Assembly (NCBI GenBank): GCA_005223075.1 | Contig: NJBO01000004.1 | Coordinates: 62,001 to 126,000 of the forward strand | Reading direction: 5' to 3' | Length of the DNA stretch: 64,000 nucleotides | Origin: a candidate division TA06 bacterium B3_TA06 | GTDB lineage: Bacteria; Hydrothermota; Tepidihabitantia; B3-TA06 | Part shown: in pieces, positions 3,247 through 17,928 of the stretch | How the letters are laid out: each line of letters opens with the position of its first letter | How positions within the stretch are numbered: position 1 is the first letter of the stretch | Position numbers and translations under genes: made by a program | The notes under the pieces: model-generated | Told to the model about the DNA's origin: nothing | Database searches by the model: none | Seen by the model: the letters and a program-made list of their open reading frames with translations, nothing else

Positions 3247-3928
3247 CGCGAATCTGGCGAAAGTAAGACAACGTATCGCCGCGGCCTGTGAACGTGGGGG
3301 ACGCGACCCTGAGGAAGTAAAGATAGTTGCAGTTACCAAGACCCATCCGGTTGAGGTTGTACGCGAAGCTATCGCCGCCGGTATCAACATAATAGGGGAG
3401 AACCGCGTCCAAGAGGCAGAGGCGAAATATAAAAAGATCGATGCAGACATCGAGTGGCATCTGGTTGGTCATCTGCAGCGCAACAAGGTGCGCAAGGCGC
3501 TTTCGATATTTTCTATGATCCACAGCCTTGATTCACTGCGGTTGGCTGCCGAGATAGAGAAAGAAAGCACAAAGCTGGACAAACTGACACCCTGTCTTAT
3601 AGAGGTTAACACCTCTGCAGAAGAGACCAAGTTCGGCGTGGCTCCGGATGAACTGGCCGGGCTGGTTGCAGAGGTTCTGAATCTGGAGCATATCAAGCTG
3701 GTAGGCTTGATGACGATTGGTCCTCTAACAGAGGACAAGGACAGAATAAGGCGCAGCTTCGTGCTTTTGCGCGAGCTGCGTGACCGGGCCGAGAGCGTCT
3801 TCGGTTGCTATCTGCCGCATCTTTCGATGGGTATGAGCGAGGATTTCGAGATCGCGGTTCAGGAAGGCGCCACGATGCTCAGGCTCGGCCGGGTATTGTT
3901 CGGCCCGCGACAAAGCTTTGGGGCTTGA
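3239..3928 (+). CDS. YggS/PLPBP family pyridoxal-phosphate homeostasis protein
   Basis: This family binds PLP without catalysing a known reaction and buffers vitamin B6 and amino-acid pools in the cytoplasm. The product contains VAVTKTHP with the predicted PLP lysine at residue 34, then IIGENRVQE, WHLVGHLQRNK, IHSLDS, VNTSAEETKFG, GLMTIGP and LSMGMSEDFE, all typical of the family. A GTG at 3239 with an upstream GAGAGG gives 229 residues, the usual length. An in-frame ATG farther upstream (3119) would lie deep inside the barrel gene and is not favoured. The stop codon lies within the tRNA-Phe promoter. Confidence 0.93.
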   Translation: MVSANLAKVRQRIAAACERGGRDPEEVKIVAVTKTHPVEVVREAIAAGINIIGENRVQEAEAKYKKIDADIEWHLVGHLQRNKVRKALSIFSMIHSLDSLRLAAEIEKESTKLDKLTPCLIEVNTSAEETKFGVAPDELAGLVAEVLNLEHIKLVGLMTIGPLTEDKDRIRRSFVLLRELRDRAESVFGCYLPHLSMGMSEDFEIAVQEGATMLRLGRVLFGPRQSFGA

Positions 3929-3953
3929 CAATGCCTGGTAAAATCAGTATATT
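3925..3953 (+). promoter_or_regulatory. Promoter of tRNA-Phe
   Basis: TTGACA at 3925-3930 and TATATT at 3948-3953 are separated by 17 bp, and the tRNA begins 11 nt after the -10. The -35 box overlaps the stop codon of the yggS-like gene. Confidence 0.75.
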
Positions 3954-3964
3954 CTGAGCTTGTA

Positions 3965-4037
3965 GCCGGGGTAGCTCAGTTGGTAGAGCACGGGTCTGAA
4001 AAACCCGGTGTCCGCAGTTCGATTCTGCGCTCCGGCA
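3965..4037 (+). tRNA. tRNA-Phe (GAA)
   Basis: A full cloverleaf is visible. The acceptor GCCGGGG pairs with CTCCGGC (one G-T pair), there is a D-loop AGCTCAGTTGGTAGAGC, and the anticodon stem CGGGT/ACCCG encloses loop CTGAAAA with anticodon GAA. The T-arm contains GTTCGATTC, and the discriminator is A. CCA is not encoded. Confidence 0.97.
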
Positions 4038-4040
4038 TGC

Positions 4041-4068
4041 TTGACAAGGCCTAGAAAGAGTGTATAGT
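4041..4068 (+). promoter_or_regulatory. Promoter of the FlgD-Ig/PorV/TPR operon
   Basis: TTGACA at 4041-4046, 16-bp spacer, TATAGT at 4063-4068. It lies directly after tRNA-Phe and about 50 nt before the ATG of the first gene of the envelope operon. Confidence 0.72.
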
Positions 4069-4121: not shown

Positions 4122-5747
4122 ATGAAGAAGGTAGCCCTTCTGACTGTCCTTCTTGTTGTGGCCGCAAGTGCAGCCATTACAATTACTTTTCCAGGCGGAG
4201 AGCCTACCACCGTAGGTATTCCGGTTAGGGTAGTCATCACGTCGGACGCAGTGGATAATGTCGATCTATTTGTTAATCCAGGGCAAAAAACGTGGGCTTA
4301 TCCTACTGAAGTTGATCTTACTCAAACAGGCCCCACTACTTTTGAGTATGACGACGACATAGAAATTACTCACCCCGGTACTAACATTACTCTTTATGCC
4401 AGCAAAGGTGCAGAACATGGAGAATCATCACCGTTTACAGTGGTTGAAGGTGCTGCTGCTAAGTGGCAGATTATTGCCCCTGGTGAAACTGCCGATCCTG
4501 GAAACGCCACCAACCCTGAGGGTAAGACCGGCACGGCATCAGTAACAGCCGGTGAAGACGGAAACTATAATATTCAAGTCTGTGACAAGTGGAGCAATAT
4601 CGTAAGTTCCACGCTTACACCTGTTGTATCCTGCACCGATAGCTTTGCCGATCTGGGCACCCCGGCAATCGGCCTCAACATGTTCAAGCTTCGTGAGGCA
4701 AAAAACCAGCAGACCATTACCGTAACCGGCGGCGGCTTGGCACAAGATTTTGCCAAGGTGAAGGTCAATCCTTGTGAAGCAACCCAGCTTCTCCTTTTAT
4801 GCCCTGGTGAGAATTCCCTGCCAGGTGATAATGCAACGTCAGGTTACCCGGGCAAATACGGTGAGCCAGTGGATGCATTCCTCGGAAGTCTTTATCTTGT
4901 TGAAATCCGAGCGGTTGACGATTGCTGGAATCAGGCAGATTATGACGATCCTGACGTGAATGTATTTGCAGGTACGGAGAATCTCACGGCGGCGCAACAG
5001 TATGGTATAGACAATGGTACGACAGGCAAGATAGTTGATGTAGTCTTCAAGGAAGTCAACCGTCAAGGTGAATGGATCGATGCGATAGGTTTGTTAGGAT
5101 TACGGACCGACTACTCGACAAAGGTAGTAGTGCAGCCAGGTATCGACTCACTCCTGACTTACTTCGTCCCCCCCACGGTGCCCGTGGGTGTTCATGCAGA
5201 TCTGTACGCCAAGGCCTACGTGGCTGGTGATCCGTTGGAGTTCGGTTACGCCTATCCGACTCTAATTGAAGGGCCTGCAGAACATTTCCATCTGTCAGAT
5301 ACGGTGATTAAAATCGACGAAGGCGTAGGCAGTATTGAAGCCTGGGCAGACACAGTTGGCACTTATGTTGTTGAGGTCACTGCAGGTGCTCAAGTTAAGA
5401 CCGCCGTGTTGACCGTTGAGGAACGTCCCGGCGTCACCGTGATCCCAAATCCGTTCAAATACAGTGCCCATGGCGACATTCCGATCAAATTCAGCTACAA
5501 GGTAGCCGAGCAGAATGCTGCTGAGGTTCTGCTCTTGATCGCCGATCCGTACGGCAACATAGTCTATAAGGCGACCTATGAAAAGGGCGCTCCTGAAGCC
5601 GATGCCGGTACACAGGAGATTTTCTGGGACCGCACGAACAGCAAAGGCAACAGGATCGCCAGCGGGATGTATCAGGCGGTAGTTAAGATTACGCTTACGA
5701 ATCTCAGCACCGAGACTTTGAAGAAAAACTTCATAGTGATCTGGTAG
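4122..5747 (+). CDS. Secreted protein with C-terminal FlgD-type Ig domain
   Basis: The ATG at 4122 follows AAGGAGG at 4109-4115 and begins a clear signal peptide (MKKVALLTVLLVVAASAA). The 541-residue product is rich in beta-strand Ig-like segments. It ends with a FlgD-Ig module (about residues 440-541): VIPNPFKY, then FSYKV, a DPYGNIVYK strand, WDRTNSKGNRIASGMY and a final strand. This module is common at the C-termini of surface proteins in FCB candidate phyla. It is the first gene of an operon with a PorV-like barrel and TPR proteins. The substrate or partner is unknown. Confidence 0.8.
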   Translation: MKKVALLTVLLVVAASAAITITFPGGEPTTVGIPVRVVITSDAVDNVDLFVNPGQKTWAYPTEVDLTQTGPTTFEYDDDIEITHPGTNITLYASKGAEHGESSPFTVVEGAAAKWQIIAPGETADPGNATNPEGKTGTASVTAGEDGNYNIQVCDKWSNIVSSTLTPVVSCTDSFADLGTPAIGLNMFKLREAKNQQTITVTGGGLAQDFAKVKVNPCEATQLLLLCPGENSLPGDNATSGYPGKYGEPVDAFLGSLYLVEIRAVDDCWNQADYDDPDVNVFAGTENLTAAQQYGIDNGTTGKIVDVVFKEVNRQGEWIDAIGLLGLRTDYSTKVVVQPGIDSLLTYFVPPTVPVGVHADLYAKAYVAGDPLEFGYAYPTLIEGPAEHFHLSDTVIKIDEGVGSIEAWADTVGTYVVEVTAGAQVKTAVLTVEERPGVTVIPNPFKYSAHGDIPIKFSYKVAEQNAAEVLLLIADPYGNIVYKATYEKGAPEADAGTQEIFWDRTNSKGNRIASGMYQAVVKITLTNLSTETLKKNFIVIW

Positions 5748-5758
5748 GTCAGGAGGCA

Positions 5759-7081
5759 ATGATGAAAGCAAGACACGTATTTCTAGCACTTACACTGGTT
5801 GTAGGGCTTGCGTTTGCCCAGGCATCTGTGGAAGGATCGGGCGGCCAGGGTGCTATGCTATTTGAGGCCGGCGGCAGCGCCCGTTCGCTGGCTATGGGGC
5901 AGGCCTATACGGCGATCGCCGATCAGGGCGAAGCCGTACTCTACAACCCGGCAGGTCTGGGGCAGATCCACTCGGCAAAGCTCTCGCTCTTAGGTGGGAC
6001 CCTCTACGGAAACACTTACCAGAGTGTGTTGGCCTACAACATGCCCTGGGCCACCTATGGGACGTTTGGGCTGGCCTATGCGGGAGCCTTTGGTGCCCTT
6101 GAGGAGACGATAGCTCCGGACGGGACCAACATCGCCGCCGAAGACGGAATGAGTAACTCCGGCGTGATGATCAGCTACGCCAAGAAGTTCAGTGCCTTCA
6201 GTGTGGGACTTGCCCCCAAGATTCTCTTCAGCAGGCTTTCTGATGAGCAGGCGCTTGCCTTTGACGTAGACGTCGGGTTCATGCTCTACCCGCTCAGCCC
6301 CATCCTCGCCAAGAAACCCACCAGCTCCCTTCCATACGACCTGCTTACTTTGGGTGTTGCTGCCAAGAATCTTCTGGCAGCTACCATGGACTACACGGGC
6401 AGCGGCATGGAGCCTGCGAACCCGCGTATCGTCCGTGCCGGACTGGGGATCAGGCTGCTTGACAACCGCGTGAAACTGGCCTCAGACATCTCCTACACAC
6501 TCGATGATAACGAAGTCTTCGGCTGGTATGAAGGCCTTGAGGTATATCCGGCAAGGCTCCTGGCTCTGCGTGCCGGTATCAACCACAACTTCTTTAGCTT
6601 CGGGCTTGGTGTCAATACCGATCTTTCACGCAGCGTGGCGCTTGAGGTTGACTATGCCTTCATGATGAATTACGCGAGTGAGTTCCTGCTCGAACCTATC
6701 CATAAGGTATCTTTAAACCTGAACTTGAAGAGCGTTGCCGGACTATGGCTTGCTTCTCGTCCTGTTGAGCTTAACTCCCCGGCCGACTACGCGGAGATTA
6801 GTGTTAATGGAGCGGCCCAGTTCAAGGGACGCATCAAGCGTTGGGTTTTCGAGATCAAGGACGCCGGCGGAAACGTCGTTTATCGAAAAGCCCAGGACGT
6901 CTACGGTGAGATCGATGAGTTGCCTTCAAAGTTTACCTGGAACGGCGTTAACAGCATCCGCGGTGGTCAGGTTGATAAAGGTACATACTACTATCAGATT
7001 ACGATCACCGATAAACTCGGGGACAAGATAGTCTATGAAGGGCTTCTCCTCAAGGTAGACTGGAAAGGCGTAAGGAGATAG
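5759..7081 (+). CDS. PorV/UPF0164-like outer-membrane barrel with FlgD-Ig tail
   Basis: A signal peptide (residues 1-20) is followed by the family signature: GGSARSLAMGQAYTAIAD and YNPAGLG near residues 37-62. PorV-type proteins are outer-membrane barrels that shuttle type IX cargo in Bacteroidetes; applying that role here is inference. Residues about 345-440 form a FlgD-like Ig module (FEIKDAGGNVVYRK, FTWNGVN, KGTYYYQITITD). That is an unusual addition to the barrel and resembles the tail of the upstream gene. AGGAGG precedes the ATG-ATG start. It lies 11 nt after the upstream gene and 4 nt before the TPR gene. Confidence 0.82.
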   Translation: MMKARHVFLALTLVVGLAFAQASVEGSGGQGAMLFEAGGSARSLAMGQAYTAIADQGEAVLYNPAGLGQIHSAKLSLLGGTLYGNTYQSVLAYNMPWATYGTFGLAYAGAFGALEETIAPDGTNIAAEDGMSNSGVMISYAKKFSAFSVGLAPKILFSRLSDEQALAFDVDVGFMLYPLSPILAKKPTSSLPYDLLTLGVAAKNLLAATMDYTGSGMEPANPRIVRAGLGIRLLDNRVKLASDISYTLDDNEVFGWYEGLEVYPARLLALRAGINHNFFSFGLGVNTDLSRSVALEVDYAFMMNYASEFLLEPIHKVSLNLNLKSVAGLWLASRPVELNSPADYAEISVNGAAQFKGRIKRWVFEIKDAGGNVVYRKAQDVYGEIDELPSKFTWNGVNSIRGGQVDKGTYYYQITITDKLGDKIVYEGLLLKVDWKGVRR

Positions 7082-7085
7082 GAAA

Positions 7086-9776
7086 ATGAAGAAGCTAGTA
7101 GCCTTCCTCGCGATCCTCGTCGTTGTCGGTGGGCTCTTCGCAGACAAGTTCATGGACGACTATGAGGCTGCGGAGCGTCTGCTTACTCAGAAGAATTATG
7201 AGCAGGCCTACAGATTCTACAACGGTCTTATACGAGAGTCCGCCTCCCGCGGTTTTGCCGCCGAGATAAAGTATCGTACCACTCAATGTGCCTATAACCT
7301 CGGGCGTTTCGAGGTGGCGATCTCGCTTCTGGAAAAGATTCTGAATGAGGATATCCCCGCAGATGCTCGTTACGCTTATCTTGAGCCGCAGGTGAAGTTC
7401 TCCCTGGGGTTGTGCTACTTCCAGATAGGAGAGGACCAGCGAGCTCAGCGATATCTGGATGAGGCAGCAGAGCTGGGCGGAATGGGGATCGCGGATTACC
7501 TTATCCGCATGGACTATAAGACGGCTTACGATCACCTCAAGGATAAAGAGTATCCGGTTGATAAGCTTTTCCTTGCTCGCAGCCTCATAAACTCCAGGGA
7601 CCCTGAGTTTTCCAGCGACATCCGGTTCATTCTTACCCAGCTTTCCGAGGATGTTGCCCTTGAGGAACTCGTTGACTTCAGCCGGGCGGAGATGCAGTTC
7701 TTCGACCAGGATTATGCCACATCAAAGCACGTCTTCCGCGACTTCATGACCAAGTATCCGCAGACAGCGCTTAGACCTTATGCTGAGTATTACCTTGCTT
7801 GTTCCTACTTCCACGATGGTGAGCACCGCTATGCTATTGACCTTTTAGGTAAACTCACCGATCCCAACACCAATCGTGTGCTTGCAGCTCATGCCTTCTT
7901 TATACGCGGCGAGGCCTATAAGGAACTTGAGTTACCCGACAGCGCTATCTCCTCGTTCGAGAACGCCAGAATCGTTGCCCCAAACTCGATGGTCGACTTC
8001 TACACCACCTACAGGCTCTACGAGATCTACCGAGAAGAATACAAAGAGAAGGGGGATGAGGTTGCTCTGTCAATGGCCAAGCGAGAGGCTAAGCGGATGG
8101 GAGAGATAGCCCTTCGCGGGCGCGAGATGCGCCATATGGAGAATCTTTCCCGCTACGTGCGCGGCAACATCGAGTTTGATCAGAATCAATACACTGAGGC
8201 CCTCAACTACTACCGCGAAGTGACCATCAACGCACCCTCACCTGACTATGCCACTGAAGAGGAACTCTTGGTCTATGAGGCGGCAATGACCATGGAACTT
8301 TTGGCACTCAACAGGCAGGATAATCGTGAAAGCTACAACGCGGCGATGACCATGCCTTACACTTACTTCACGATATTCAAGCGGGATTCGGTTGCTCTTG
8401 ACTACGGCGGTGACTTGCGAGCGTATCTCCTCTACAACCAGGCCGATGCAACATACTACTCATCTTACGTGCGTGGGGAGATCCGTAACACAAAGAGGCG
8501 CGAGCAAGCACGAGAGAAGTACCAGGAGATCCTTGATAAGTATCCTGATTCCTATATGAGTACCTTGGTCAAGGTTGCTCTGGCATGGTATAAGCTTGAG
8601 GCAGGAGAGGGCTACTACGATGCTGCGCTTGCGGAGTTTGATGCCCTTACTAATCGTGATAGCCCCACCGCTACCACCAAGACGGACGCTTTAGTTCTTG
8701 CGGCTTACGGACAGGCACTTGCTTACTTCTATAAAGGCGACTTTGGAAACGCCGGCGCGTGGTTCCTGAACGAAGAGGAGTACCGCAACGGGCTTAGGGT
8801 GACGGTGAACCGCGAGGATGCCAGTGAACACGTGCGTTACAACGAGATCGCAGATAGCCTTATAGACCGCAGTCTCTACTGGCGTGCTACCTGTTTTGAA
8901 GCGCTCAATGCGTACGGTGATGCGTTGGATATCTATCAGCATATCGCAGATGCCTACCCTGATCGCGAGAAGGCGGGAGACGCCTGGCGGAAGATTATAG
9001 AGTTCAATCTCCGTGGAGGCAGGGTTGATGACGCGGTTTCTGCAACCGAAGAAGTGAAGAGCAGGATGACTGTGAATCCCAGGGTCTACAAGGAAACCTA
9101 TGGATACGGATTGGCGTCTTTGTTCGATCACTACCAGCGCGCAGGTGATGAGGCTACAGCCGAGGTCTACGCTAAGAAACTTGTGAGCGAGCTGGGTACT
9201 ACTGAGCCTATTGAAGGGCTTTACTACAGACAGGCCATGGAAGATACCAGCGTCGCGAATATCGGCGATCTGCGGGTGAGGATAGAGATGATACGGGCGC
9301 GTAATCCACGTAGCACCTACCTGCCTGACCCCTTGTTCCTCCTGAGCCTGCTTCTTATTGAGGATGAAAGCTTCGATGAGGCCAAGGAGGTTCTGGTCGA
9401 ACTCAAGAACTGGCCTGACATCTCGGCCACCAGAGACAGGATGCCCGATATCTCCTATCAGCTCGCAAGGGTACATTTCCAGACAGAGAAGTACGAGGAT
9501 GCAATCACTGGGTTCGAGTCGTGGACGCGATACTACGAGAGGGGTGAAACCGCGCGGACTGATCTTGCCCCGTTCGTTTACTACTTCCTCGGTTTGTCCT
9601 ACTTTAACCTGGGAGAGGGGGTTGAAGGAAAACCTCAGGTTCGTATCGACCACTACCGTAGGGCCTTGAAAAGCTTCGAGGTCATTAAGGAAAGCTACTC
9701 CGACAGTGATTTCTACACGGACAACGCGGAGACGGTAGATCGGTTTATCTCGCAATGCAAGAGAAATATCCACTAG
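7086..9776 (+). CDS. Large secreted TPR protein
   Basis: The 896-residue product has a signal peptide (MKKLVAFLAILVVVGGLFA), then TPR-like helix pairs over almost its whole length. Recurrent patterns include A..LL..KNYEQAYRFYNGLI, YAEYYLACSYFHDGEHRYAI and ISYQLARVHFQTEKYEDAI. It is probably periplasmic or attached to the outer membrane and acts as a scaffold. It is the third gene of the operon starting at 4122, and its 3' end overlaps the next TPR gene by 22 nt. TPR proteins next to a TonB/Tol-type motor recall CpoB/YbgF, but no orthology is claimed. Confidence 0.8.
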   Translation: MKKLVAFLAILVVVGGLFADKFMDDYEAAERLLTQKNYEQAYRFYNGLIRESASRGFAAEIKYRTTQCAYNLGRFEVAISLLEKILNEDIPADARYAYLEPQVKFSLGLCYFQIGEDQRAQRYLDEAAELGGMGIADYLIRMDYKTAYDHLKDKEYPVDKLFLARSLINSRDPEFSSDIRFILTQLSEDVALEELVDFSRAEMQFFDQDYATSKHVFRDFMTKYPQTALRPYAEYYLACSYFHDGEHRYAIDLLGKLTDPNTNRVLAAHAFFIRGEAYKELELPDSAISSFENARIVAPNSMVDFYTTYRLYEIYREEYKEKGDEVALSMAKREAKRMGEIALRGREMRHMENLSRYVRGNIEFDQNQYTEALNYYREVTINAPSPDYATEEELLVYEAAMTMELLALNRQDNRESYNAAMTMPYTYFTIFKRDSVALDYGGDLRAYLLYNQADATYYSSYVRGEIRNTKRREQAREKYQEILDKYPDSYMSTLVKVALAWYKLEAGEGYYDAALAEFDALTNRDSPTATTKTDALVLAAYGQALAYFYKGDFGNAGAWFLNEEEYRNGLRVTVNREDASEHVRYNEIADSLIDRSLYWRATCFEALNAYGDALDIYQHIADAYPDREKAGDAWRKIIEFNLRGGRVDDAVSATEEVKSRMTVNPRVYKETYGYGLASLFDHYQRAGDEATAEVYAKKLVSELGTTEPIEGLYYRQAMEDTSVANIGDLRVRIEMIRARNPRSTYLPDPLFLLSLLLIEDESFDEAKEVLVELKNWPDISATRDRMPDISYQLARVHFQTEKYEDAITGFESWTRYYERGETARTDLAPFVYYFLGLSYFNLGEGVEGKPQVRIDHYRRALKSFEVIKESYSDSDFYTDNAETVDRFISQCKRNIH

Positions 9777-11362
9777 GGCGGGTTTTTGTCCTAACAATTA
9801 TTCTATTGTCTGCATCTCCCCTGCTTTCCGCGGGGGAGATGCAGATCACCATTACAGAGGAGTACAAAGGAGCGATTCGTGAGCAAAAGCCTCATGGGCT
9901 TTTCCACGAAAGCGGGGAGGTGAAGCTGGAGGGAGGACTCACTCCAGAGCAGGTCTCTGAGCTTAAAGGGATTATAAACACCACTGATCTTGTGGTGCTG
10001 CGAGATGCGTTACAAAACTCAATCATCCTTGATCTATATGAGAAGGGCGGCTACGCGGCTCTTTTAAATGCGGCTCAGAGTTATCTTGAACAATACCCTG
10101 AGGGGGACCCTGTGTTCCGTCCCCATATCCTCTTCCATGTGGCAGAGGCGCTTTACTATCAGTACGAATACCAGGAAGCGATGCTGCGTTACCGGGAGCT
10201 GATGAACGAGTACAGCACCTCCGAGATATACACCTTTGCTCAGCAGGGTCTTGCGTGGTGTCTTATGCACCTGGGACGTTGCGATGAGGCGCGTGACCAG
10301 TTCAAGCAGCTTCATCCCGCCACGGTTGAGGGTTTTGTAGCCGCGGTTTTCGGTCAGGCGATCAACGAGTTTAACGATGAGAGATACCAGGAGGCCATCA
10401 GGCTTTTCTTTGACGAGGCCGGTTATCAACAGATACCTCTGGAGGGTATCTGGGGACCTCTGGCAAAGTCGCTTGTTCCAAAGAATCTCTACTATAAGGC
10501 ACTGGCCTACGACCGTCTTGGGGATCAGCGTACTGCGATTCGTTACTTCAGACGTGTGTCCGAGGACTATCCTGATTGTCCCAAGGCAGGCCGGGCCACC
10601 TATCTTGTCGGATGGTTGAGTTTCCTAGCAGAGGACTACGGTCAGGCCATAATCTTCTTTAACAGGGCCATTGACCTCGTTCCCGACAGTTCAGATATCT
10701 ACGAGATTCGCATCAACCTTTCCCAGGCCTACTACAATGCAGGGCGTTTGTCCGAGGCAATCAGCAACTGGAAGGAGATCTGCAGGGTATGGGGGGCCTC
10801 GGTTGCCAACACAGGTCTTGAGCAGTGCTACACCAGGCTCTCTGCCGAGATGATGGCCGGAGACTACGGGCTCTTCCCGACCGACACCCTTGAGCGTCTC
10901 TTGAGGAACTTCGCCGCAGGCCTCCCCGACTCAAAGGATCTGCCCACCTTCCAGTTTCAATTGGCCCAGAGGTTCTATGACGAGAATGACTACCGCAAGG
11001 TGCTTGAGTGGACCGCATCGGCCATGGCCTCGCAGGCCAGCGAGGATGTAATCAAGGACGCAAAGAGATTGCGTCTCTTTGCTCTCTACTCACTCAATGA
11101 GTGGAAGGACCTGGTTGTGGAGGGTGAGAACTTCAAGAAACAATACCCCAAGGATACCGAGGACAATCTTCTCTTTATTATAGGGGCAGGGTATGCTTCC
11201 CGTGGGGATGACTTGAAGGAAACCAACGTTACATCAGCACATGATCATTTCCGCAAGGCAATCCCTCTGTTCGAGAAGTTTCTTGCCACCGTAGCAACGG
11301 ATAACCCATATCGAAGCTATGCCGAGCAACTCCTGGCTTACTGCCGCAGCCAGTTGCAGTAG
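9755..11362 (+). CDS. Secreted TPR protein
   Basis: The 535-residue product has an N-terminal signal (GRVFVLTIILLSASPLLSAG, preceded by about eight residues) and multiple TPR units, for example HVAEALYYQYEYQEAMLRYRE and YYKALAYDRLGDQRTAIRYF. The ATG at 9755 lies inside the end of the preceding TPR gene and has no strong ribosome site, so it probably depends on translational coupling. A second hydrophobic start is not available downstream. Together with the 896- and 831-residue neighbours it forms a set of three secreted TPR proteins. Confidence 0.78.
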   Translation: MQEKYPLGRVFVLTIILLSASPLLSAGEMQITITEEYKGAIREQKPHGLFHESGEVKLEGGLTPEQVSELKGIINTTDLVVLRDALQNSIILDLYEKGGYAALLNAAQSYLEQYPEGDPVFRPHILFHVAEALYYQYEYQEAMLRYRELMNEYSTSEIYTFAQQGLAWCLMHLGRCDEARDQFKQLHPATVEGFVAAVFGQAINEFNDERYQEAIRLFFDEAGYQQIPLEGIWGPLAKSLVPKNLYYKALAYDRLGDQRTAIRYFRRVSEDYPDCPKAGRATYLVGWLSFLAEDYGQAIIFFNRAIDLVPDSSDIYEIRINLSQAYYNAGRLSEAISNWKEICRVWGASVANTGLEQCYTRLSAEMMAGDYGLFPTDTLERLLRNFAAGLPDSKDLPTFQFQLAQRFYDENDYRKVLEWTASAMASQASEDVIKDAKRLRLFALYSLNEWKDLVVEGENFKKQYPKDTEDNLLFIIGAGYASRGDDLKETNVTSAHDHFRKAIPLFEKFLATVATDNPYRSYAEQLLAYCRSQLQ

Positions 11363-11559
11363 TGTTGCCGCTACTTTCCCCTTTCATCCTTGTATTTTTC
11401 ACAGCTGTACCGATCGAATCTGGGGCGAACATACGTGTAGATATGGCTGGGGCTTGGGAGAGTATAAACACGGACGCCGCGAAAAGGCTCAAGAGGGGCC
11501 CAGAGGAATCATCAAAAAGACCGACGCCTCGCGAGGAAAAGATTGCACCCCTTGAGTGA
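11362..11559 (+). CDS. Small protein with N-terminal hydrophobic segment (uncertain)
   Basis: This 65-codon frame starts at a GTG that shares its G with the TAG stop of the TPR gene, a coupling-type junction. It encodes a hydrophobic N-terminus (LLSPFILVFFTAV) followed by a charged tail rich in Arg, Glu and Pro. It could be a small exported or membrane protein, or chance coding. No family is recognised. Its end overlaps the promoter of the next TPR gene. Confidence 0.4.
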   Translation: MLPLLSPFILVFFTAVPIESGANIRVDMAGAWESINTDAAKRLKRGPEESSKRPTPREEKIAPLE

Positions 11560-11579
11560 GGGTAATCTGTCTTTATAAT
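11552..11579 (+). promoter_or_regulatory. Promoter of the third TPR gene
   Basis: TTGAGT at 11552-11557, 16-bp spacer, TATAAT at 11574-11579. It would give a leader of about 30 nt containing an AGGAG site, so the third TPR gene can be transcribed separately from the first two. Confidence 0.65.
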
Positions 11580-11614
11580 ATAGAAGAGATGGAGAATCGC
11601 TTTAGGAGAACGTG

Positions 11615-14110
11615 ATGGTCGCGTTGCTTTTGTTGCTAATCAGCCAGGACGGTCTGGGGGTGCGCACTGTTGAGGCTGCTGAGGTGCTTGAGCGCAAGCC
11701 GCATTTCCCATACCGGCTGCCTGAATGGGTTACCGACGAGTATCTCTTTGCGCTTGCCGGCTTCTCGCTTGAGGAAGAGATTGAGGAGTGCATTGATGCC
11801 ACGATCCTTACCCTTGGGCTTGGCGGCAAGCCCTTGACTCCGGCAATGGTCGGTCCTTTCGAGCTGCTTGAACAACTGAAGCACGAGGAGGCGATGAAGA
11901 TTCTGGCGATGCAGCTTGGGACCCCACCTGTACCTGAGGTGAGGCGTCAGATCCTACTCTACCGTATAACCGGCGACTGGATGGGCGGCGATCTTGACGC
12001 GGCAAGGCAGAGCCTTAAGACACTCCAGCTAGACACCGAAGCGTCCCAAGGCACTGATCTTGATTTTGTTTCCGATCTTCTTTCCTACTGGAAGAAGGGT
12101 GAGGTGGCCACCGACGACTCGCTTCTACACTTTCTTTTAGTCGAGCGTGATCCTGAGATGGCCTTGGAGTTTCTACCCGATCAACCAGTCCCGGTTCAGG
12201 CTTTGCGATACCATCTTGATGATGATGCCCAGGTTTTGCCTGAAGGTTCGACAGCTCGTTTTCTACGTGCCCACAGACTGCTGCGTCAGGGGCGCTACCA
12301 GGAGGCGGAGGATTCCCTGAAACGGCTTTCTGATCTGCGCTTTCCATACCAGGCACTTTCCCGTTACGATATGGCTGCGGCCCTTCTGGCGCGTGACAAC
12401 TCGCGTAAGGCTCACCTTGCGGTACCTGATTCCTTCCCCTATCAGTGGCTGCTGCCCCAGCGCTCGCTTGCCCTTATGAGGGGGCGGGTTGAGTGGGCCG
12501 AGGAGCGCCCCAGTGACGCCAGGAGATGGTTCAGAGAGGCTCAGGATAACATCTCGTTCGATTTGTACGCTAAGTGGGTGATGTCTTCTAGCAAGGCCGA
12601 TCCTGCCACCGAGGCTCACTTTGCTCGCCACAATGCGGATGAACTCTATCGCGCTCTGCGGGTTGCCGATCTCTTCAGGGGGGGTGATTACAGGCGTGCG
12701 GTTCCCATCCTTGAGGAGTCTCTTAGGGGGCTTGACATATCCAGCTCCACGCCACTTGGCGATCTTATGGTGGCGCTATATGGGGTTGCCCAGAACGAAC
12801 AGGCTAACTACCAGCTTGTAGTGAGATTAGCCGATGTAGTCCGGGAACGCGGTATGCAATCGGAGGAAGAAAGCTACTTTGTAACCGCTGCTCATCTGGC
12901 TGTAGCTGACGCCTACTACTACGCTGGAGGTCGTTACGAGGATCTGGCGAAGCCTTTCTATGAGTACTGTATGAAGAGTGACTTTGATGATCTTCGTCAT
13001 CTGGGTCTTTTTGGTCTTGGGTGGAGTTTGCTTGGGAAGCGGGAAGTAGAGGGCATAGAACCTGTTCTTTCAGTTCTAGGCAAGGAATCCCTGACGGAGT
13101 GGGAGAGTGAGGTTGCGATATTCCTGGAGGGTATGGTCTTTTATGCGAGGCGTGATTTCCGAGGTGCTGCCGAGGTCTTTTCCCGATTGAACTTCTCCTC
13201 GGTGCCCCGGATGCAAATGCAGGGGCTCTACTTTGAAGCCCGCTCCTACGAGCAGAGCGGCAGGCCCGAACTTGCGGCTTCTGCCTACGATGATCTGCTT
13301 GCCGTTTTCCCGGACCGGGAAGAGGTGCGCGACTCGTGGACTCGTTTGGTGCGTGCTCAGATCGAAATGGATGATATCGACGCGGCAAAAGAGACCCTGA
13401 ACCGTCTCATTAAGCAGGCGAAACTCCACCATTTCCCGTTTGTTGATCTGTATAAAGAGATACTCCTCTTAATCTTCGATGCCTCTATGGCCAAGGGTGA
13501 TGAGGAGCAGGCCAGGCAAGTGGCAAAAAGTTTCAGTCTTGCTCAGAACTCGACTTTGCCTCTGGAGGCTTTCTACTATCGAATCGGGGAGCAGGACACA
13601 GCGCTTTGGCAGACCGATCATCTTATTGGTGTAGTTGCAAAGCTTTCCGATGTTAATCCACGAAGTGCCTACCTTCCACCTCTTCTCTTGCAGCTTGCGC
13701 GCATGGAGATTGAGCTCGCAGACTACAGGCCAGCCGTAGAAAGACTTGAGCGCATCATCCGATGGAGTAGGCTTTCCGATGTGAGTAGCATACTCCCCGA
13801 GGCATCATACGAGCTGATTCGTGCCGCGGTGCTTTCCAAGGACTGGGAGCGGGTAATACTTCGAAGCGAGATATTCATGAAATCCTATCCTGATCTGGAT
13901 GAGCTTGCTCCCCGTGTGCTTTTTTTCCAGGCAGCAGCCCTTCTAGAACGTGCGGGCAACGGCGATCCATTTGCTCGCAAGGAAGACGGTAAACAGGCGA
14001 TTGCGGCACTGGATCGTCTTGAGACCTCCTACGCGCAGACTGATTTTGTGAAGGAGTTGGTGGATGATATCAAAGCCCTGCGCAGTTTAGCCGAGTTGTT
14101 TGTCCGATAG
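11615..14110 (+). CDS. Large TPR-repeat protein
   Basis: ATG 11615 is chosen because AGGAG at 11604-11608 is well spaced from it; GTG 11612 is the alternative. The N-terminus is short and hydrophobic (MVALLLLLISQDGLG), consistent with export although it lacks a classic basic start. The 831-residue product is built of helical TPR-like pairs (for example LRAHRLLRQGRYQEAEDSL, FYARRDFRGAAEVFSRL and SYELIRAAVLSKDWERVI). Its organisation resembles the 896-residue TPR protein upstream, so the two may be old duplicates. It lies between the FlgD/PorV operon and the Ton motor operon. Confidence 0.75.
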   Translation: MVALLLLLISQDGLGVRTVEAAEVLERKPHFPYRLPEWVTDEYLFALAGFSLEEEIEECIDATILTLGLGGKPLTPAMVGPFELLEQLKHEEAMKILAMQLGTPPVPEVRRQILLYRITGDWMGGDLDAARQSLKTLQLDTEASQGTDLDFVSDLLSYWKKGEVATDDSLLHFLLVERDPEMALEFLPDQPVPVQALRYHLDDDAQVLPEGSTARFLRAHRLLRQGRYQEAEDSLKRLSDLRFPYQALSRYDMAAALLARDNSRKAHLAVPDSFPYQWLLPQRSLALMRGRVEWAEERPSDARRWFREAQDNISFDLYAKWVMSSSKADPATEAHFARHNADELYRALRVADLFRGGDYRRAVPILEESLRGLDISSSTPLGDLMVALYGVAQNEQANYQLVVRLADVVRERGMQSEEESYFVTAAHLAVADAYYYAGGRYEDLAKPFYEYCMKSDFDDLRHLGLFGLGWSLLGKREVEGIEPVLSVLGKESLTEWESEVAIFLEGMVFYARRDFRGAAEVFSRLNFSSVPRMQMQGLYFEARSYEQSGRPELAASAYDDLLAVFPDREEVRDSWTRLVRAQIEMDDIDAAKETLNRLIKQAKLHHFPFVDLYKEILLLIFDASMAKGDEEQARQVAKSFSLAQNSTLPLEAFYYRIGEQDTALWQTDHLIGVVAKLSDVNPRSAYLPPLLLQLARMEIELADYRPAVERLERIIRWSRLSDVSSILPEASYELIRAAVLSKDWERVILRSEIFMKSYPDLDELAPRVLFFQAAALLERAGNGDPFARKEDGKQAIAALDRLETSYAQTDFVKELVDDIKALRSLAELFVR

Positions 14111-14480
14111 GTGACTTGCCTGCTCATGCAATTGGTTTTACACCCGGGTCATTTGACGAGACCCGTAGGGATGGATTTTCTCATCATGAGAGGATTCTTG
14201 GCCTTCAGTCCTATGACCGAGCTTTTTGCCTAGGGTATCTTTCCTATTGATCTTTGTTCGATTTTGGATATTATTATGATACAGTTTAAGACGAGCATCG
14301 CGTTTTTTGTCTAAGAGACGGGCGGGGTGTGGTAAGTATATGGAATTGCGTGTCTTGGAAGACAGGCAGGTGGTATGTAACTTGCTTGCTTTCTTCCGTA
14401 AACGTAAGAGTAATCTTGAACGTCTTATAGATGAGAAAAACCGGTGGTTTTGAGCGTGTATCCCATTAGGGGATAGAGAC
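14111..14480 (+). other. Gene-poor stretch with one possible 37-codon ORF
   Basis: About 370 nt separate the TPR gene from the Ton operon promoter. An ATG frame at 14340-14453 encodes 37 residues with a basic, helical C-terminal half, but it has only a weak ribosome site. Short inverted repeats (CGGGTC/GACCCG near 14150-14167 and CTCAT/ATGAG near 14180-14190) lack a T-tract. I see no convincing terminator or RNA gene. Confidence 0.3.
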
Positions 14481-14509
14481 TTGACAAGAAGGTAAAAGTT
14501 GACTATACT
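14481..14509 (+). promoter_or_regulatory. Promoter of the exbB-exbD-tonB operon
   Basis: TTGACA at 14481-14486, 17-bp spacer, TATACT at 14504-14509. A consensus AAAGGAGG ribosome site follows before the exbB ATG. Confidence 0.8.
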
Positions 14510-14538
14510 TTGGGTAAAGCATTGCCAAAGGAGGTACG

Positions 14539-15180
14539 ATGAAGTTACTCCAGATGGTTGATCCGAGATTCAGTTGGGTTATGACAGTGATTCTCGGGGT
14601 TTCGGTTATTGCGATCGCATTGATCGTAGAGCGGTTTATCTACTTCGGCAAACGGCGTGCCAAGGCCGCGAAGTTCTTCGAGAAGGTTAAGGAGACGTTT
14701 GCAACGGGCGGCATCCCCGAGGTGCTTGCTCTGGTAAAGAACTACGATGTCCCTTTCGCTCATATTGTTCGTGTGGCTTTCGAGAACTACACCCTCCCAG
14801 ATGAGATGATCGCTGAGCTCATGGAAAGCGAGATCCTTGAGCAGCGAACCAGGATGGAACGTTTCCTTGGTGGTTTGAATACCATAGGCAACGTGGCGCC
14901 GCTTCTAGGACTTTTGGGCACAGTGCTCGGTCTTATCAACGCATTTGCTAATATAGCTAAGTCTGGTTCAGGCGGCCCTGCCGTGGTTGCGAAAGGTGTT
15001 CAGGAGGCCCTTTACACTACCGCTTTCGGATTGATGGTTGCTGTGCCAACCATCTTCGCCTACAACTACTTTGCCAAGAAGGCCACCGACTTGACGGATG
15101 AGATGGAGTCCTTCATGCGTCAGCTCCTCAAGCTTATCTCGATGTCTAAAGGTGGTTCCTATGAGAATCCGCAAGCCTAG
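14539..15180 (+). CDS. exbB: ExbB/TolQ-family proton channel protein
   Basis: The 213-residue product has membrane segments near residues 10-35, 118-142 and 155-180. It carries the MotA/TolQ/ExbB core (TIGNVAPLLGLLGTVLGLI and ALYTTAFGLMVAVPTI). With ExbD it forms the inner-membrane proton-driven stator that powers TonB-type energy transfer to the outer membrane. It starts an operon with two exbD-like genes and tonB. The 3' end overlaps exbD by 20 nt. Family membership is secure; whether it works as ExbB or TolQ is not settled by sequence alone. Confidence 0.93.
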   Translation: MKLLQMVDPRFSWVMTVILGVSVIAIALIVERFIYFGKRRAKAAKFFEKVKETFATGGIPEVLALVKNYDVPFAHIVRVAFENYTLPDEMIAELMESEILEQRTRMERFLGGLNTIGNVAPLLGLLGTVLGLINAFANIAKSGSGGPAVVAKGVQEALYTTAFGLMVAVPTIFAYNYFAKKATDLTDEMESFMRQLLKLISMSKGGSYENPQA

Positions 15181-15595
15181 TAGGAAAGCGCATCCATCCG
15201 GAGAGGCTCAGATCACCTCTCTGGTTGATGTCGCCCTGAGCCTTGTTATCTTCTTCATCGTTACCCTTCCTGCGCTTCTGGAGAGCGGGATCTTTGTAAA
15301 GGCCCCAGGGGTAACTCCCGTAGGTAGTACTGAGCAGGTCGATGAGTTCAAGGTTGCTATCTACCTTAAGGCCGACGGTACCTATCTTTTGAACGAGGAG
15401 CCTATCGAGAAGGAACAGATGGGCCCACTGATCGAGCTTTTGCTCCAGCGCAGCGTGGATAAGATGGTGGTTGTCCGTGCCGACGGTGCGGTGAGTCACG
15501 GCGATGTGGTAGAGATCCTTGATCTGGCGAAGGAGAAGAAGGCGCTTAGACTGGCACTCCTGCGGGGCAGGCCTTTAGAAGAAGAAGGGTCGTAA
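15161..15595 (+). CDS. exbD: ExbD/TolR-family protein (first copy)
   Basis: ATG 15161 lies within the end of exbB and gives 144 residues. The N-terminus has the family layout: a short cytoplasmic part, ITSLVDVALSLVIFFIVTLP with the membrane Asp of the family, then a periplasmic domain ending in a KMVVVRADGAVSHGDVVEIL segment. It pairs with ExbB as a stator subunit. The next gene starts on the last base of its stop codon, indicating tight co-expression. Confidence 0.92.
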   Translation: MRIRKPSRKAHPSGEAQITSLVDVALSLVIFFIVTLPALLESGIFVKAPGVTPVGSTEQVDEFKVAIYLKADGTYLLNEEPIEKEQMGPLIELLLQRSVDKMVVVRADGAVSHGDVVEILDLAKEKKALRLALLRGRPLEEEGS

Positions 15596-16047
15596 TGGCC
15601 GAAAAGAGAGAAAAGCGCGATCTTGATGTCCAGAAGGTTATCATTCCTATGGCTGGTGTGGCACTTATCGTGGTTCTGATGATGATGATAACTGCAACGC
15701 AACTCCTCACGCATGAAGAGACCCAGGTAGAGGTGCCCAGAGCGAACACGATGGAACGAACGACAGAGGATAACCTGACTATAGCCCTCGTAGGTACTAT
15801 GGATAACCCTGGGGATCGTAAGCTTTACCTTAACGACTCGCTTATGCCCCTACCTTCTATCGAGCGGCGGATTCAGCAGAAGATGGGCGAGGACCCCTAC
15901 TATCTGGTTGTTGTTCGTGCGGATAAGAGAGCACCTTCCCAGTGGGTTATGGATCTTTTAACGATGGTTAAAGGCGCGGGGGCGCAGCGCGTAGCGCTGT
16001 CCACTAAGCGCATTGTCAAGAAAGAAGAAGCCACCAATGGCGAATAA
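15595..16047 (+). CDS. ExbD/TolR-like protein (second, divergent copy)
   Basis: The 150-residue product has one membrane segment (VIIPMAGVALIVVLMMMITA, about residues 14-35). Its periplasmic domain ends in PYYLVVVRADKRAPSQWVMDLL, the same layout as ExbD. The membrane helix lacks the usual ion-carrying Asp (the first copy has LVDVALS), so it may be a structural partner rather than a proton carrier. TAATG overlap with the first exbD. Two different ExbD-like subunits in one operon suggest a hetero-oligomeric stator. Confidence 0.8.
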   Translation: MAEKREKRDLDVQKVIIPMAGVALIVVLMMMITATQLLTHEETQVEVPRANTMERTTEDNLTIALVGTMDNPGDRKLYLNDSLMPLPSIERRIQQKMGEDPYYLVVVRADKRAPSQWVMDLLTMVKGAGAQRVALSTKRIVKKEEATNGE

Positions 16048-16059
16048 AGGAGATGAAAA

Positions 16060-17025
16060 ATGGCTAGTTTTATGGGATTAGAGATCAGCCTGCGTCCGAA
16101 GGATTGGTTGCATACATGGTGGCTGGCCCTCTCTAACACGGCTCGCGGTCTTGGTGAGATTTTTGCAAACAAACGGCTGTGGGTCGGGCTTGCCGTTTCA
16201 GTGGTTCTGCATGGGTTGATTTTCTTCCTCTCGTTGGATTTGATGGGGCGCAAGGTAGGCGCAGATCTAGGTCAGGATATACCTGTAGCCTACGATCCCA
16301 CTTTGCCCCCTAAAGCCCAACAGCTTGTTCAGCAGGAACAACAGTTCTTGCCTGGCAGCACAGCAGAGGAGAGTGCACCCATCGATCTCTCAAAGGGCAA
16401 GGTTTCTTTCCAGTCCCAGATAGAGGTTGATGAGTTCTCCCTGGATAAGGGTCAGGCCAGCTTAACCGGTGATGTTATCCGCATCAATCCAAATACGCGG
16501 CTTTCGACGGAGGAGATCTTAGCTCAGGCCCCGATCGACATCTCACGCAGTATCGGGGGCACGGGTGCGCAGAGTGCCTTCGATCGGATTGCCGGTTCGG
16601 GCGCTGGTAGCTCAATCGAGTTGGACAGTAGAGCCACACAGATCGGCTCCCAGGTGGAGAAGCCCACGTTTGAGAGGGCCGGTGGTGATGCCGGCGCGGC
16701 TAAACAGGCCGTCAGTGAGGGAGGCGCTAAGGGCTCGACCTTTGCTCTCACTGGCGATCTGTCGCAAGCGGATATTATAAGCAGCCCCTTCCCTGTATAT
16801 CCACCGTGGGCAAGGCAGAAGGGACTGACCAATGTCACGATCCGTATCCGCTTCTCGGCCGATGCCTCGGGGAATGTGCTCTCAACTATGATCGTGGGCA
16901 AGAGCACCGGTTATCCGAACTGGGATTCCGCAGTCAAGTCAACCCTGGCTCGCTGGAAGTTCAAGCCTGCCGATGGCGTTGGCAAACGAAACGCTACCAT
17001 TACCTTCAGGTTCATACTGACTTAG
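16060..17025 (+). CDS. tonB: TonB-family energy transducer
   Basis: The 321-residue product has a 40-residue cytoplasmic N-terminus, one membrane segment (about 41-61, WVGLAVSVVLHGLIFFLSLD) and a long linker. Its C-terminal TonB domain (about 235-321) contains FPVYPPWARQKGLTNVTIRI, NWDSAVKSTLARWKF and FRFIL. The linker is Ser/Gly/Gln-rich rather than the Pro/Lys-rich spacer of proteobacterial TonB. AAAGGAG precedes the ATG. It would transfer proton-motive force from ExbB/ExbD to outer-membrane partners. Confidence 0.9.
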   Translation: MASFMGLEISLRPKDWLHTWWLALSNTARGLGEIFANKRLWVGLAVSVVLHGLIFFLSLDLMGRKVGADLGQDIPVAYDPTLPPKAQQLVQQEQQFLPGSTAEESAPIDLSKGKVSFQSQIEVDEFSLDKGQASLTGDVIRINPNTRLSTEEILAQAPIDISRSIGGTGAQSAFDRIAGSGAGSSIELDSRATQIGSQVEKPTFERAGGDAGAAKQAVSEGGAKGSTFALTGDLSQADIISSPFPVYPPWARQKGLTNVTIRIRFSADASGNVLSTMIVGKSTGYPNWDSAVKSTLARWKFKPADGVGKRNATITFRFILT

Positions 17026-17035
17026 GAGGTCCGCT

Positions 17036-17860
17036 TTGAGGAAGATACCGTTTGTTCTCTTTATGGCGTTGATAGTTATTCCTGCAACTCTCTTAGGGCA
17101 GGAGCCGTGGGAAAGGGTTGTTACAGGAAAAGCGATCATCGAGAGTAAGCCGAAGGCGTTCTACTACGAGATAGATCCTTACCAACCTATAGGGATCCTC
17201 CTTGGTGCCAACAGGTTCATCCTGGACGAAAACCTTACCACCCAGGTGGAGAAGGCGGTTGGTCGAAGCACCTTCATGGCAGATCCTTATCTTTTGCGTA
17301 TCCCTGTGCAGATTTCCAGGTTCTACGATCTTGATCACGAGTTTTTGAGTGTAGAAACAGCACCATACCAGGAACGTGGAGTGAGCGAATGGGAAGTGCA
17401 GATACTGGACGCACGAGGTAGCACCTTCCGCACGCTTCAAGGCAGAGGCTCCCTACCGGCTTCTATTAGCTGGGATGGGCGCGGTGACGAACTCACCGAG
17501 GTGATGCGTGTAGGCGATGTCTATTCCTACATCATTATTCTAACCATGAAAGACGGTTCCCGCATGCGTAAGATCGGCCGGCCTATCGATCTGAATGGGG
17601 TTGCTTACGACAGCGTAGTTGCGGTGAAGGAGTCAGAGATTGCAACCTACGATCCGATTGTCTCTGAAAAGATCGCCCGCTATTATCAGTACGTTCTCAA
17701 CCGCTTCAAAGAGAAGGGCTTCTCCCGGATCAGAATAACCGCTTCGGATAGCTATATAGCCGATATCGCGCAGCGTTATCTTAATGAACGGCTTTACCAC
17801 ACTGAGATCACCGTTGTGGAGAATCCTGAGTACGCTCGTGTAGAGTTTGTCTTCCAGTAG
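17036..17860 (+). CDS. Periplasmic protein with FlgD-Ig-like segment
   Basis: The start is TTG at 17036, six bases after AGGAGG, followed by a signal peptide (MRKIPFVLFMALIVIPATLLGQ). Residues about 115-175 resemble the FlgD-Ig module (VSEWEVQILDARGSTFRTL, ISWDGRGD, VYSYIIILTMKDG). The last 60 residues have an alpha/beta look reminiscent of OmpA-like domains (IARYYQYVLNRFKEKGFSRI, DIAQRYLNERLY), but I cannot assign it firmly. It is the last gene of the Ton operon, 10 nt after tonB. This ties FlgD-Ig proteins to the motor genes. Confidence 0.7.
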   Translation: MRKIPFVLFMALIVIPATLLGQEPWERVVTGKAIIESKPKAFYYEIDPYQPIGILLGANRFILDENLTTQVEKAVGRSTFMADPYLLRIPVQISRFYDLDHEFLSVETAPYQERGVSEWEVQILDARGSTFRTLQGRGSLPASISWDGRGDELTEVMRVGDVYSYIIILTMKDGSRMRKIGRPIDLNGVAYDSVVAVKESEIATYDPIVSEKIARYYQYVLNRFKEKGFSRIRITASDSYIADIAQRYLNERLYHTEITVVENPEYARVEFVFQ

Positions 17861-17903: not shown

Positions 17904-17928
17904 AGGCCCGTGTGGTTGACACGGGCCT
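17904..17928 (+). terminator. Perfect 10-bp inverted repeat, possible bidirectional terminator
   Basis: AGGCCCGTGT and ACACGGGCCT flank a 5-nt loop. A real poly-T tract is missing on either strand. It sits between the convergent ends of the Ton operon (+) and the minus-strand operon ending at 17995, and it overlaps the -35 box of tRNA-Asp. It could terminate, or modulate the tRNA promoter. Confidence 0.5.

Follow-up and report, generated by a model that had tools for sequence, protein, structure and literature searches.

In proton-driven motors of the ExbB/ExbD kind, the proton is carried by an aspartate in the membrane helix of ExbD, and two threonines of ExbB line the pore. The two axle aspartates point in opposite directions in most of the solved Ton and Tol motors, an asymmetry thought to set the flow of protons as well as the power stroke (PMC12905483). 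Two ExbD-type subunits also occur in the AglRQS motor of Myxococcus, for which no heterodimers are known (PMC9389320). A contribution to the export of PopC comes from a Ton system that has an ExbD1 and an ExbD2 (PMC6434023). Here we describe an operon of candidate division TA06 bacterium B3_TA06, contained in a stretch of 64,000 nucleotides (contig NJBO01000004.1, positions 62,001 to 126,000; hereafter the window) from a genome of 2.41 Mb in 42 contigs. It encodes an ExbB, two unlike ExbDs and a TonB-like transducer together with exported and outer-membrane proteins, and only one of its two ExbDs has the aspartate.

With Ton systems the operon shares the same three motor and transducer families, the TonB C-terminal domain, the ExbB threonine pair and the S-x3-H of the SHLS motif; it differs in that the two ExbDs are diverged and have one Asp between them, and in that no TonB-dependent receptor belongs to it, a separate Ton operon being found in the same genome. 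It is like Tol-Pal in having an ExbB that scores best against TolQ, two ExbDs that score best against TolR, a tetratricopeptide repeat (TPR) protein and a protein of OmpA-like topology, but it lacks TolB and a lipoprotein Pal and has a PorV-like barrel and FlgD-Ig proteins in addition. The likeness to Myxococcus AglRQS-Glt is one of motor layout, with a single ExbB-type subunit, a pair of ExbD-type subunits and TonB-like transducers, although the Asp is predicted to be kept in both AglQ and AglS (PMC9389320). GldL/GldM, too, is driven by protons and belongs to bacteria that have SprA, PorV-family and sorting-domain proteins; no GldL or GldM match above cut-off was found in the class genomes studied here, and the operon is uncorrelated with the presence of SprA. 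Finally, Oar-TonB, which exports PopC in Myxococcus, is a precedent for protein export served by a Ton system with an ExbD1 and an ExbD2 (PMC6434023), but it uses a TonB-dependent transporter, of which there is none in this operon.

All ten genes listed in a preliminary description of the window were present between 4122 and 17860, on the plus strand and in the order given there (Table 1), and domain scans agreed with the content it had assigned: FlgD-Ig proteins, a PorV-like barrel with an FlgD-Ig tail, TPR proteins, the motor, TonB and a periplasmic FlgD-Ig-like protein (P274). The two adjacent transcription units that it proposed fit the strong sigma-70-like promoter matches ahead of both units, and approximately 430 bases with their own promoter-like sequence separate the TPR genes from exbB. 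We call the group WOR-3 (Candidatus Stahlbacteria) after the names on related loci, and sampled 61 genomes of the class and 120 of the phylum. A search with P274 gave matches in 44 of the 61 class genomes, and the full order FlgDIg-PorV-TPR-ExbB-ExbD1-ExbD2-TonB-P274 was seen in 28 fetched loci, the remainder being mostly broken at contig or stretch ends. This order, whose conservation the preliminary description had proposed as a check, recurs across the families of the class in the neighbourhoods read, and the operon is also present in other classes of the phylum. Because the order is kept in dozens of genomes, down to approximately 25% protein identity, chance is excluded. An ExbD2 profile matched 72 of the 120 phylum genomes; with eight Ton-like matches removed (contexts were read for members of families f12, f15, f16 and f19, and the rest were assigned by family or score), about 64 carry the operon. 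The lineage of the window has three TPR genes in the operon; in most relatives there is just one.

An unusual feature of the motor is the distribution of the proton-carrying aspartate, which in most of the operons is kept by just one of the two ExbDs. Within class WOR-3, Asp is found in 32/32 aligned ExbD1 sequences and in 0/35 aligned ExbD2 sequences, all 35/35 of which have Cys, Ala or Gly at that column (genome G036 is excluded from both counts). The alignment is supported by conserved prolines three residues before and fourteen after the Asp position; a quick count of Asp motifs by regular expression was confounded by a further Asp, six residues upstream, and the alignment and a tree were relied on instead. 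Families f18 and f23–f27, from other classes, have Asp in ExbD1 only, as in class WOR-3, whereas f29 and f32 show the reverse, with Asn in ExbD1 and Asp in ExbD2. In a tree of 60 ExbDs from which the Asp column had been taken out, all ExbD1 sequences, Asp and Asn forms alike, fell into one clade (support 100/99), so the loss of Asp is reciprocal in orthologous subunits. The Asp-less ExbD2 sequences formed another clade (99/95), and a single clade for all ExbD2 was not resolved. Elsewhere the motor looks functional from its sequence, since ExbB keeps its threonine pair (Thr in 35/35 at each of both positions) and TonB its S-x3-H (Ser in 34/39, His in 36/39). The Asp pattern and its reciprocal loss suggest that ExbD1 and ExbD2 pair as a heterodimer in which a single subunit carries the proton. 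A pattern scan found Asp-less ExbDs restricted to WOR-3, but a single narrow pattern was used and the result is not strong evidence. In f32, ExbD1 is fused to ExbB in one protein that adjoins a second, separate ExbB (L183 6296–7381, L187 9596–10672).

We propose tentatively, at slightly less than even odds, a rotary 5:2-type motor that powers an undescribed outer-membrane surface machine of WOR-3 and whose axle obligatorily pairs the two ExbDs around a single proton carrier, a state to which reciprocal Asp loss would have led more than once. Several observations weigh against such a single-carrier motor and the machine favoured below. In G036, a member of class WOR-3, both ExbDs of the operon are canonical and carry Asp, and G123 likewise has Asp in both ExbDs, together with two ExbBs; one carrier is thus not universal. 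In 24 of the 35 ExbD2 sequences the membrane helix has a further Asp at its edge, six residues before the aligned column; the ExbD2 of the window itself has Val there. The two ExbDs could form separate motors, and in G008 the operon is split, with ExbB-ExbD1 on one contig and ExbD2-TonB-P274 on another (loci L196 and L046). It is also gene neighbourhood alone that points to a surface target.

To place the operon (motor A) among the other motors of the group, we compared it with a canonical Ton operon, ExbB-ExbD-ExbD-TonB, in which both ExbDs have Asp within a TASxxDIAFL-type motif (motor B), and with a canonical Tol-Pal operon, Pal-YbgF-TolQ-TolR-TolA-TolB, which is separate from operon A in relatives (motor C). 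The genome of the window has exactly two ExbD pairs, those of operon A and of a canonical Ton pair on another contig, and as it has no third ExbD locus it shows no sign of Tol-Pal. Motors A, B or C stand side by side in several members of f6 and f3, and motor B was found in every lineage looked at. Since Ton and Tol-Pal each have a proper operon of their own, operon A is a third proton-driven trans-envelope system. A plain copy of Ton was rejected because of the canonical Ton operon elsewhere in the genome and the lack of a plug protein in the unit. The PorV family is FadL-like, bacteria commonly have more than one Ton copy, and the TonB C-terminal domain would suit a second Ton system of the usual kind, with the PorV-like barrel opened for nutrient import. 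We consider this very improbable, because a Pfam scan found no TonB-dependent-receptor plug domain among the proteins of the unit and the additional parts, TPR and FlgD-Ig proteins, are found again and again in the phylum; PorV-family barrels are not known to have a TonB-dependent plug. Many TonB-dependent receptors, which the preliminary description would have counted against its proposal, were not found: the genome of the window has four plug-domain matches, none of them in the unit.

The distribution of motors A and C hints at an overlap between operon A and Tol-Pal. Families f1, f2 and f8 have operon A and no Tol-Pal among their ExbD matches, f9 and genera g5 and g8 of f3 have B and C without A, and none of the well-covered genomes examined is without both A and C. 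Together with the TolQ and TolR affinities of the motor and the TPR gene upstream, which could stand for CpoB, this would fit a Tol-Pal equivalent drawing the outer membrane towards the cell wall, in which OmpA-like P274 would act in the place of Pal. The C-terminal domain of P274 has a fitting topology, a beta-alpha-beta-alpha-beta-beta order in the AlphaFold2 (AF2) model, and weak OmpA sequence matches were obtained for 5 of 18 P274 members (best E 0.005). However, a profile comparison of the P274 C-terminus with Pal was not significant (P 0.11), a lipobox was found in 0/42 P274 homologues, and Pfam and NCBIfam scans found no TolB among the proteins of the unit. Both systems are present in many genomes, and a PorV-like barrel and exported Ig proteins are foreign to Tol-Pal. 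On balance we regard a Tol-Pal equivalent as unlikely, if the strongest of the alternatives.

The preliminary description had also suggested that this Ton-type motor, with its two unlike ExbDs, may energise the export or surface assembly of FlgD-Ig/sorting-domain proteins. Our data support this in part. The motor is indeed conserved with PorV-like and FlgD-Ig genes, and components of type IX-like secretion are present: SprA was detected in the genome of the window (TIGR04189, 353 bits against a cut-off of 200), C25 peptidases in 61/61 class genomes and 61 FlgD-Ig matches in the genome of the window, while GldL/GldM was above cut-off in 0/61 class genomes and absent from the window proteins, in searches whose control panel was without a positive genome. 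The operon does not follow these components, however. SprA is present in 115 of the 120 phylum genomes and the operon in about 64; class genomes without and with the operon have a median of 58 and 47.5 FlgD-Ig matches (p 0.87; a count of 75 means at least 75) and of 13 and 13.5 C25 peptidases (p 0.78). These numbers imply that operon A is not needed for the general export of such proteins, and a role as general type IX motor was ruled out. The operon itself includes no SprA or C25 gene. We therefore consider it improbable that its motor replaces GldL/GldM and drives FlgD-Ig/sorting-domain export through SprA. For a secretion motor, motor B is no weaker a candidate, being present wherever it was looked for and followed in several families by a secreted protein, mostly with FlgD-Ig or Por_Secre_tail above cut-off and often with BNR-type repeats; the corresponding protein in the genome of the window has a weak tail match (17 bits). 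Such post-Ton proteins lie at L096 7051–9057 and in L130, L135, L199, L201, L209 and L212. The SprA/Sov translocon of the genome is a protein of 1964 aa (L095 6508–12402, contig 5). A literature search found no paper joining WOR-3 and the type IX secretion system.

We examined the proteins that accompany the motor by domain scans and structure prediction. The first protein has FlgD_ig at its C-terminus (29 bits, above cut-off in Pfam/NCBIfam) and an all-beta AF2 model (mean predicted local distance difference test score of 80), with which a Foldseek search returned generic Ig-type arrays only. Such a long exported Ig array, and the Agl-Glt-like layout of two ExbD homologues with a TonB-type transducer (PMC9389320), would fit a gliding or surface-transport motor moving the array, comparable to Myxococcus Agl-Glt or Bacteroidota GldLM-SprB; Ig arrays serve many roles, however, and we think this rather unlikely. 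The barrel protein gave 73.6 bits for the PorV/PorQ family NF033709, below the cut-off of 90, and two of its homologues gave 106 and 124 bits, above it. Both termini of PorV-type barrels face the periplasm, and so the FlgD-Ig tail (21.4 bits) should do the same. The FlgD-Ig domain of P274 is weak when taken singly (E 0.083). Of 18 aligned members, however, all but one (17 of 18) gave a FlgD_ig match, the best at 1e-7, and the P274 model matches FlgD crystal structures in Foldseek with an E of 4e-4, in results dominated by the Ig domain. P274 is encoded by a tandem duplicate in genus g3 (L044 10240–12117, L045), and further distant copies occur in G006 (contig 67) and G007 (contig 237).

Taken together, these data favour, at a probability of roughly 0.55, a dedicated WOR-3 machine that is driven by protons, spans the envelope, is distinct from Ton and Tol-Pal and acts on an outer-membrane complex. 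In such a machine the axle, with a single copy each of ExbD1 and ExbD2, would be enclosed by five ExbB subunits. Just one of the two axle subunits could carry a proton, and the assembly would turn proton flow into motion. The TonB-like rod would convey the force through the periplasm to a complex made up of the PorV-like barrel with its periplasmic FlgD-Ig tail, a TPR scaffold and soluble P274, which may hold the cell wall. The exported Ig-array protein of the operon would be the likely client, to be moved, anchored or assembled at the surface; alternatively, the output may be envelope tethering. A dedicated role in surface-protein handling or envelope tethering, rather than in general secretion, is most likely.

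Table 1. Features of the operon and its promoter-like sites (window coordinates)
Feature	Position	Strand	Evidence
Sigma-70-like promoter of first unit, TTGACA-16-TATAGT	4041..4068	+	Consensus match only
Secreted Ig-like-domain protein, C-terminal FlgD-Ig, 541 aa, Sec-type signal	4122..5747	+	Pfam, AF2, first gene of conserved operon
PorV/PorQ-family outer-membrane barrel, C-terminal FlgD-Ig tail	5759..7081	+	NF033709 below cut-off; homologues above
Secreted TPR protein, 896 aa	7086..9776	+	TPR_2, TPR_6, YbgF-type repeats
Secreted TPR protein, 535 aa, lineage-specific extra copy	9755..11362	+	TPR repeats; single TPR gene in most relatives
Secreted TPR protein, 832 aa	11612..14110	+	TPR/YfiO-like repeats
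Sigma-70-like promoter of motor unit, TTGACA-17-TATACT	14481..14509	+	Consensus match only
ExbB/TolQ-type channel subunit, Thr128 and Thr161 invariant	14539..15180	+	MotA_ExbB, 114 bits
ExbD1, transmembrane Asp codon 15227–15229	15161..15595	+	ExbD, 66 bits
ExbD2, Gly21 (codon 15655–15657) in place of transmembrane Asp	15595..16047	+	ExbD, 56 bits
TonB-like transducer, TonB C-terminal domain, S-x3-H in membrane helix	16060..17025	+	TonB_C and TIGR01352 above cut-off
P274, periplasmic FlgD-Ig and OmpA-like-topology protein, 274 aa, no lipobox	17036..17860	+	AF2, Foldseek

The start of ExbD1 is probably at 15161 and not at 15098. Sites of the form TTGACA-TATAxT recur in the region, and the one at 17916 is a perfect match. 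Between a YggS-like gene and the operon lies a tRNA-like sequence (3925–4037), which also has a strong promoter-like site of its own.

As far as could be found, this operon, widely conserved in WOR-3, is undescribed. In the literature as far as it was accessible to our search, no report of an Asp-less ExbD partner was found, and a term search of the text of a 2025 study on other new proton-driven transducers gave neither WOR-3 nor PorV (PMC12204202). The motor belongs to the Ton/Tol/Agl kind, its one-carrier axle being unusual, and conservation and reciprocal loss are the strength of the case. It would add a third envelope motor, with outer-membrane partners of its own, in a little-studied phylum, and a natural one-Asp motor in which the residue has been lost from either subunit, according to lineage, would make the need for two carriers directly testable.

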